A stretch of 64,000 nucleotides of DNA from Prochlorococcus sp. scB243_495K23 (GTDB lineage Bacteria > Cyanobacteriota > Cyanobacteriia > PCC-6307 > Cyanobiaceae). The notes under the pieces were generated by a model, which was not told where the DNA came from, searched no databases, and saw only the letters and a program-made list of their open reading frames with translations. The stretch is from the NCBI GenBank assembly GCA_000635495.1, contig JFLW01000086.1:103996-167995 (forward strand), written 5' to 3'. Below are positions 9,040-41,879 of the stretch, one piece after another. How positions within the stretch are numbered: the stretch's first letter is position 1; each line of letters starts with the position of its first letter. A program made the position numbers and the translations under genes.

Positions 9040-9296
9040 TAAAGAAATAATAATTGTTAACTAAAGTAACACAAATATTAACTTATGTAAACCAAAATCT
9101 CCAATGAATTCCTCAAAGTATTTATGTTCTTGGTCAATATGTGACATTTCTGTTTAAAAATTCGAAAGTAAATTTTATTAATCAAATAATTTTCTAATTA
9201 TCAAACTCGCAATCATTTTTTTTTAAATAAGCATTTATACTCACAGTAAGTAATTTTACTTAGTAATATAGTTATAGCATTTAGGAAGTGCTTAGC

Positions 9297-9362
9297 TGGT
9301 TAAATCAAAAAACTGAATTAACCAAGTCGTCATGAGCTTGCTGGTGGGATACCTGCAGGCTC
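9297..9362. ncRNA. candidate structured RNA (two adjacent hairpins)
   Basis: TGGTTAA...TTAACCA followed by GC-rich GAGCTTGCTGG...CCTGCAGGCTC in an otherwise very AT-rich gap. Confidence 0.4.
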
Positions 9363-15420: not shown

Positions 15421-15500
15421 TCCTAAACTTGCTCAAGTCCCCGTCCTATGGCTTGAGTCGTACTGCGGTCTATCAGATGGTAGATCGGACGATTTTGTAG
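15421..15500 (-). ncRNA. candidate Downstream-peptide (glutamine aptamer) RNA in the 5' UTR of the DUF4278-like ORF
   Basis: Minus strand: GATCTACCATCTGATAGACCGCAGTACGACTCAAGCCATAGGACGGGGACTTGAGCAAG: two stems with CCGCAGTACGA joining region, directly upstream of the peptide ORF. Confidence 0.55.
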
Positions 15501-40340: not shown

Positions 40341-40541
40341 TTAAAAAAAAGAAAAAATCATCATTTGTTTATATTTTGAGGAACCAATAACTAAATTTAA
40401 ACTTGATATCTTATGGAATTTTTTATGCGTAAAATTACAAAATTCATTTTCATCTGAATAGTTAATTAAATCAACTGCATTAATATTTGAATCAAACCAA
40501 AGGTCATATTCTATGTAATTTGGCTCTGCAAAATAAGTCAT
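40341..40541 (-). CDS. hypothetical protein related to the N-terminus of 12403-12876
   Basis: YFAEPNYIEYDLWFD. Confidence 0.45.
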   Translation of the reverse strand: MTYFAEPNYIEYDLWFDSNINAVDLINYSDENEFCNFTHKKFHKISSLNLVIGSSKYKQMMIFSFF

Positions 40542-40565
40542 ACCAAATTTATTTCAAAAAGAAAA

Positions 40566-40601
40566 AGCTTCTCTATTTCGTGTGAGGAGAATATAGAAGC
40601 T
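40566..40601. ncRNA. hairpin carrying Yfr1 motif (minus) / anti-Yfr1 sequence (plus)
   Basis: AGCTTCT...AGAAGCT stem; loop GTGTGAGGAG (+) = CTCCTCACAC (-). Confidence 0.4.
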
Positions 40602-40727
40602 AATTTCAGTTTAAAAGATTTAATGAACTCTTCTTTAAGAATTAAATAAGATACGAATAAGAAAAAATAAAATATTTTTTTAATTTAAAAAAATGATTAC
40701 TTTACTTTTTGCATACTATAAAAAATT

Positions 40728-40767
40728 GCATTCAATGCCACTGCTTTGCTTTAGAAGAATTGAATGC
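40728..40767. ncRNA. hairpin RNA with loop CCACTGCTTTGCTTTAG, sibling of 11942-11985
   Basis: GCATTCAAT/ATTGAATGC 9-bp stem. Confidence 0.4.
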
Positions 40768-40994: not shown

Positions 40995-41879
40995 TTATTT
41001 ATATTGATATATTAATTCTGGGTTATAAGAATGAACAAATAACATTGGCTCTTCATTATCTACATCAGTAACTATGTGAAATTTATTATCATCATAATTT
41101 ACTGCTATTCCTCCAGCCCAATTCATGTAGGGGATTTTATATTGATTAATAATTGTATTTGAATCCCAATCATAAATATAGATTTCCCTATTTAAACCAC
41201 TCAATATCCAGATTTTTTTATTTAATACATCATAATCAAGCCCACTAATATCAAAACTATTTAATTGATTTTCATAGTTGGAGAACTTTTCAATTTTTCT
41301 AAAACTAAGTATTTTATTTAATTCACCGTTAATTTTTATTAGCATTGCTGGAAAATCTTGTTTTGCAACAATATATGTTTCCTCTTCTGGTAAAAAAGTT
41401 ATTGCCTCTAGTCCATGACTTTTATTTAAGGTCTGCAATTTAAAGAATTTTTTTATAAGTGAAAAATTCTTCATTTCACTTAATAAGTAGTTTTTATGTT
41501 TTCCGCTATCCAATTCAACAGTAACTACTTTAGGATATTGAGATTCTATTACAGCTACTAAAAGATTACGTTTTTTATTCAAGGTAATACCTTCACTTTC
41601 ATCGAGAGGAGAATTAATTGTTTTTTTTCGATTTATATCTCCTTTAAGATCTAAATTAAACAATTTGGAAGTGTCGTCACTAACCGTCCAAAGAGACTTT
41701 TTATCTACATCAAAAACTAAACCTGAAGGTTCATCAAATTCTAAGTCAACATTGGCTATTGCTCTTTGACTAATAAAATTAATATGAGGAGTATCTAATC
41801 TATCTTTGATTTGTATATTAGCATTAACAGCAGTAGGTAAAGCAAGGGCAGCTAGTAATGGGAGTAGTAAGCGTTTCAT
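40995..41879 (-). CDS. secreted SdiA-regulated/phytase-like beta-propeller protein with MKRLLLPLLAALALPTAVNA signal
   Basis: EPSGLVFDVDKKSLWTVSDDTSKLFNLDLKGD...DESEGITL...LEAITFLPEEETYIVAKQ. Confidence 0.7.
   Translation of the reverse strand: MKRLLLPLLAALALPTAVNANIQIKDRLDTPHINFISQRAIANVDLEFDEPSGLVFDVDKKSLWTVSDDTSKLFNLDLKGDINRKKTINSPLDESEGITLNKKRNLLVAVIESQYPKVVTVELDSGKHKNYLLSEMKNFSLIKKFFKLQTLNKSHGLEAITFLPEEETYIVAKQDFPAMLIKINGELNKILSFRKIEKFSNYENQLNSFDISGLDYDVLNKKIWILSGLNREIYIYDWDSNTIINQYKIPYMNWAGGIAVNYDDNKFHIVTDVDNEEPMLFVHSYNPELIYQYK

Follow-up and report, generated by a model that had tools for sequence, protein, structure and literature searches.

A 10-nt match to the core of the sRNA Yfr1 lies in the loop of a hairpin of Prochlorococcus sp. 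scB243_495K23, and it raises the question of whether this hairpin belongs to a Yfr1-type RNA or resembles one by chance. The hairpin is found in the window, by which we mean the whole 64,000-nt stretch of DNA analysed here. The defining feature of Yfr1 is ACUCCUCACAC, perfectly conserved and unpaired between two stem-loops (PMC2190773). Yfr10, Yfr12 and Yfr18 share this motif, Yfr12 with two transitions; in the Prochlorococcus members it is extended to ACUCCUCACACAC, and each of the three adjoins a Yfr2-family gene (PMC2518516). Yfr10 exposes the motif in the loop of a stem, and once UCCU is exchanged, neither Yfr1 nor Yfr10 binds the ppa target that they share (PMC6778093). Because a loop-borne motif is a recognised arrangement, the idea of a Yfr1-type function for the hairpin deserved a real test.

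A hairpin with a U-rich tail in the leader of a small gene

The hairpin is part of a cassette with the following features:

40341..40690, minus strand: cassette of leader, hairpin and ORF, ~350 bp, common to 47 Prochlorococcus genomes
40610..40690, minus strand: conserved upstream leader (...TTATTCGTATCTTATTTAATTCTTAAAGAAGAGTTCATTAAATCTTTTAA...), the presumed promoter region
40580..40589, minus strand: loop 10-mer CTCCTCACAC, the same as positions 2-11 of the Yfr1 core, which varies in relatives
40556..40565, minus strand: terminator-like U-rich tail TTTTCTTTTT, immediately 3' of the stem
40341..40541, minus strand: 66-aa ORF, diverged from its paralogue, a ~60-aa protein of unknown function that occurs throughout the genus Prochlorococcus

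From 40601 to 40566 the minus strand reads AGCTTCTATATT-CTCCTCACACG-AAATAGAGAAGCT (in full, AGCTTCTATATTCTCCTCACACGAAATAGAGAAGCT), followed by TTTTCTTTTT at 40565-40556. This is an imperfect hairpin with a 7-bp outer stem (AGCUUCU/AGAAGCU), a short inner helix and a loop of 10-12 nt that holds CUCCUCACAC; on the plus strand, 40580-40589 is GTGTGAGGAG. The hairpin, its 10-mer and the T-tract lie exactly where a first-pass annotation of this DNA had placed them, and the preference for the minus strand that it drew from the T-tract is supported by both the U-tail and the fold: an 81-nt minus-strand RNA has a fold z-score of -2.85, with 3 of 200 shuffles equally stable, versus an unremarkable -1.11 for the plus strand across the hairpin. 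As in intrinsic terminators, a stable stem is directly followed by a U-rich tract, with an energy of -8.5 kcal/mol and 7/8 U in the tail, both similar to those of the Yfr1, Yfr2, Yfr10 and Yfr18 terminators (-9.2 to -11.9 kcal/mol). A simple terminator scan made no call at the hairpin, whose loop exceeds the length permitted by that scan.

The ATG of the ORF lies 25 nt past the end of the hairpin, and relatives keep it at 24-25 nt. Searches of Pfam and NCBIfam gave no match for the 66-aa product. By its substitution pattern the ORF is a real gene under purifying selection, because dN lies below dS (dN/dS <1) against divergent relatives (dN 0.15 and dS 0.26 against MED4); against paralogues, dN is 0.25 and dS more than 1.2. 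One relative, L014, has an in-frame internal stop in the ORF. The earlier suggestion of a 5'-UTR element of this ORF thus holds in that the hairpin is located in the leader of a real, conserved gene. We considered, and rejected, the hairpin as a general trait of the small-ORF family, since paralogues at the other locus have unrelated upstream sequence. In MED4, the paralogue of the ORF lies immediately downstream of the yfr10-yfr2 pair, in convergent orientation (L217 1062-1294 and ~1371-1540; MED4 346661-347140), and an L026 copy is also near a Yfr10-like motif, a proximity that is possibly coincidental.

Over the 52 leader nucleotides closest to the hairpin, a stretch that stops 8 nt short of it, there are 0.31 changes per column. 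Some of the relatives were found via a pattern in the leader, which may flatter this value; the counts behind our verdict on the loop are independent of this pattern. Elsewhere, weak partial leader matches (L120-L123) were set aside for their coding or low-complexity appearance. The 4-8 nt just 5' of the hairpin (40602-40609 in the window) are hypervariable among relatives (GAAATT, TAGGT, TTGGT, TCGGT, GAGAT). Judged by eye, AAGCU and AGCUU form an alternative stem in many relatives, with these nucleotides as its loop. This antiterminator-like stem, which is not clean in the window copy, would be a competitor of the hairpin. Further upstream, an inverted repeat GCATTCAAT...ATTGAATGC followed by AATTTTTT (40728-40767, minus strand) is likely the terminator of the upstream gene 40995-41879.

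The block shared among relatives begins near 40690, and the flanks of the cassette differ between genomes in several cases. A recombination site at the cassette end was rejected, because the hairpin sits within the shared block. Two genomes, G023 (C113, C1) and G194 (C23, C20), each contain two cassette copies, one of them diverged, which suggests duplication or mobility of the cassette. We identify genome G015 as Prochlorococcus MED4, since its Yfr10 and Yfr18 are at the published coordinates; its cassette copy is at 1.349 Mb, ~12.5 kb from Yfr20, which the published sRNA table assigns to genomic island 5. The window itself also contains a Yfr20 sRNA (RF02367, 77.8 bits in Rfam; 9275-9361, plus strand) and a Glutamine-II riboswitch aptamer (RF01704, 58.4 bits; 15432-15494, minus strand).

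The match to the Yfr1 core is rare but incomplete

The 10-mer occurs once in the window, versus 0.03 copies expected by shuffling, and four times in the whole genome: in the true Yfr1, in the Yfr10/Yfr18-type sRNA, at one coding-sequence site and in the window hairpin. The coding-sequence copy (L004) falls inside an open reading frame that we take to be MazG-like, and so at least one of the four copies is a coincidence unrelated to RNA. The genome's own Yfr1 (L002, G000:C41:138190-138243) matches RF01116, and its own Yfr10/Yfr18-type sRNA (L001) matches RF02362, a model that also matches MED4 Yfr10; the latter sRNA carries the motif in a hairpin loop and is followed by a Yfr2-type RNA (Cyano-1 match).

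The first-pass annotation had described a match to the Yfr1 core, and ten nucleotides are indeed identical and single-stranded in the predicted fold. The known element, however, is the 11-mer ACUCCUCACAC, of which UCUCCUCACAC has 10/11: the window motif reads UCUCCUCACACG, without the leading A, and also without the trailing AC of ACUCCUCACACAC. Unlike in Yfr1, the motif sits in a hairpin loop and not between two stem-loops, and the locus is not at guaB-trxA. The hairpin resembles Yfr10, Yfr12 and Yfr18 in the placement of the motif in the loop of a stem, within what would be a short, leader-like RNA with a terminator-like element after it; it differs in lacking both the 11-mer and the 13-mer and in having no Yfr2-family neighbour, as these sRNAs have in HL strains, in a genome that already has a true member. 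No Cyano-1/Yfr2-type match and no exact Yfr2-type motif GTGTGTAGGAG were found within the window. In Rfam searches of the window, at the gathering threshold and with E up to 10, the hairpin matched neither RF01116 nor RF02362.

The loop drifts where the motifs of true sRNAs are invariant

We located the Yfr1, Yfr18-type and hairpin loci in the same 47 genomes by overall DNA similarity, not by the motif, and cross-checked each locus against exact 10-mer matches; many of these relatives were assembled from single cells, and their sequences may contain errors. The 10-mer was exact in 38/38 Yfr1 loci and 39/40 Yfr18-type loci, versus 31/49 cassette hairpins. By parsimony, the ten motif columns had undergone no change in Yfr18 (30 sequences, tree length 0.97) or in Yfr1 (30 sequences, tree length 0.37), and six in the hairpin (clean set of 34 sequences, tree length 0.47).

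Within the cassette, the loop accumulated 0.60 changes per column versus 0.71 for the outer stem (p=0.49), about four times the rate of the ORF (0.15). The 3' arm of the hairpin (0.29) and the tail from the stem to the ATG (0.21) are conserved, and the 5' arm, the loop and the 5' flank are variable, with the most variable non-coding part of the cassette just 5' of the stem (1.88). The first-pass annotation, which had proposed a Yfr1 mimic, had itself set the conservation of the loop against that of the stem, and this comparison came out against a Yfr1 reading. Loop variants comprise ATCCTCACAC, TTCCTCACAC, CTCCTCGCAC, CTCCTCACAT, CTCCTCAAAT and, in MED4, CGCCTCACAC, in which the UCCU core needed for Yfr1/Yfr10 pairing is broken. 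In the clean set of 34 sequences the inner 8 nt, UCCUCACA, underwent a single change, but 26/113 non-coding 8-nt windows are as conserved, so that this conservation is not exceptional. Since the letters of the loop drift while the true sRNAs stay frozen, these alignments indicate that the resemblance to the Yfr1 core is most likely due to chance.

As for the stem, the fold is retained in most of the 32 unique relatives, whereas a few (L013, L081, L113, L115) have a broken or weak stem; in the L014 lineage, a 2-nt insertion gave a longer stem of -13.6 kcal/mol. Two-sided compensatory substitutions were absent among 21 unique hairpins, and the evidence for selection on the stem, as read from the alignments, is therefore moderate.

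Alternative explanations

The hairpin could instead be a diverged Yfr10/Yfr18-like sRNA, or an sRNA-plus-read-through actuaton of the kind known in cyanobacteria (PMC5386190). In either case the 5' motif of Yfr2-family RNAs would be the pairing partner of the loop, and the pairing would sequester these RNAs or let Yfr2 control the small ORF. The presentation of the motif in a loop, as in Yfr10 (PMC6778093), favours this possibility, as does the sRNA size of an RNA that would consist of leader, hairpin and U-tail. The calculated duplex of the window loop with the Yfr2 motif, at -14.8 kcal/mol versus -15.8 for Yfr1, points the same way, and most loop variants still give -11.5 to -14.4 kcal/mol, where random 22-mers reach -10.9 at 1%. 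Nonetheless, we consider it improbable, given the unconserved, truncated motif, the missing RF02362 match and the absence of an exact Yfr2-type motif from the window. Moreover, the L117 variant loses Yfr2 pairing (-6.9 kcal/mol), MED4 lacks the very UCCU whose exchange abolishes ppa binding, and the published sRNA table has no sRNA at the MED4 cassette locus (1348987-1349117). The MED4 and L117 loops also make it quite doubtful that the loop is a Yfr2-binding site, where Yfr2-family RNAs would pair with UCCUCACA and control a mobile genomic-island gene at the level of termination or translation; just as doubtful is the third, leader-borne class of Yfr1-motif RNAs that it would define.

Transcription of the plus strand, proposed earlier as giving a decoy or sponge for Yfr1, and by extension Yfr10, via GUGUGAGGAG, is the least credible of all, despite the perfect 10-nt complementarity of that strand to the motif: its fold is no better than that of shuffles, it lacks a U-tract, the several hundred bases upstream contain no promoter-like site, and the complement of the motif drifts as freely as the loop. 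Less easily dismissed, if still unlikely, is a neutral, fast-evolving spacer from promoter to ORF that folds by chance, with hairpin and loop both functionless. The extreme variability 5' of the stem and the lack of compensatory pairs would agree with it, but the 3' arm and U-tail are conserved, the fold persists in most unique variants, and the L014 insertion produced a longer stem.

A probable terminator-like leader element

The explanation that we favour, as fairly probable, is that a small genomic-island gene carries a terminator-like stem-loop in its 5' leader and that the loop matches Yfr1 fortuitously; the hairpin would most likely act in cis. The conserved parts of the hairpin, its 3' arm and U-tail, speak for this explanation, as do the stem energy and U content, the purifying selection on the ORF and the drift of the loop. 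Counting against it are the absence of compensatory pairs, the few broken or weak stems, the missing call in the simple terminator scan and the potential of UCCUCACA to pair with the Yfr2 motif.

Transcription would probably start in the conserved block around 40610-40650, from a putative promoter, and the nascent leader would form the hairpin, with the U-rich tail next. Part of the transcription may stop at the U-tail, leaving a short leader RNA of ~60-80 nt, and read-through would yield the mRNA of the small ORF. Partial termination would be the simplest mechanism, given the conserved upstream block and a gap from U-tail to ATG that leaves little space for a promoter. Intrinsic terminators, attenuator-type leaders and actuatons likewise place a hairpin and U-tail in the 5' region of a gene, and here no separate promoter is obvious after the hairpin. 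Actuatons are short-RNA-plus-mRNA units of cyanobacteria (PMC5386190), in which a discrete sRNA and a read-through mRNA share one start site, and the architecture of the window, as read from its sequence, is compatible with such a unit.

Together, our results indicate that identity to an ultraconserved sRNA core over 10 nt, even in a hairpin loop, can be a coincidence, and that the true sRNAs of the same genomes provide a clean conservation control for judging such matches. If pairing with Yfr2 were nevertheless true, the Yfr1/Yfr2/Yfr10 network would reach the genes of mobile islands.
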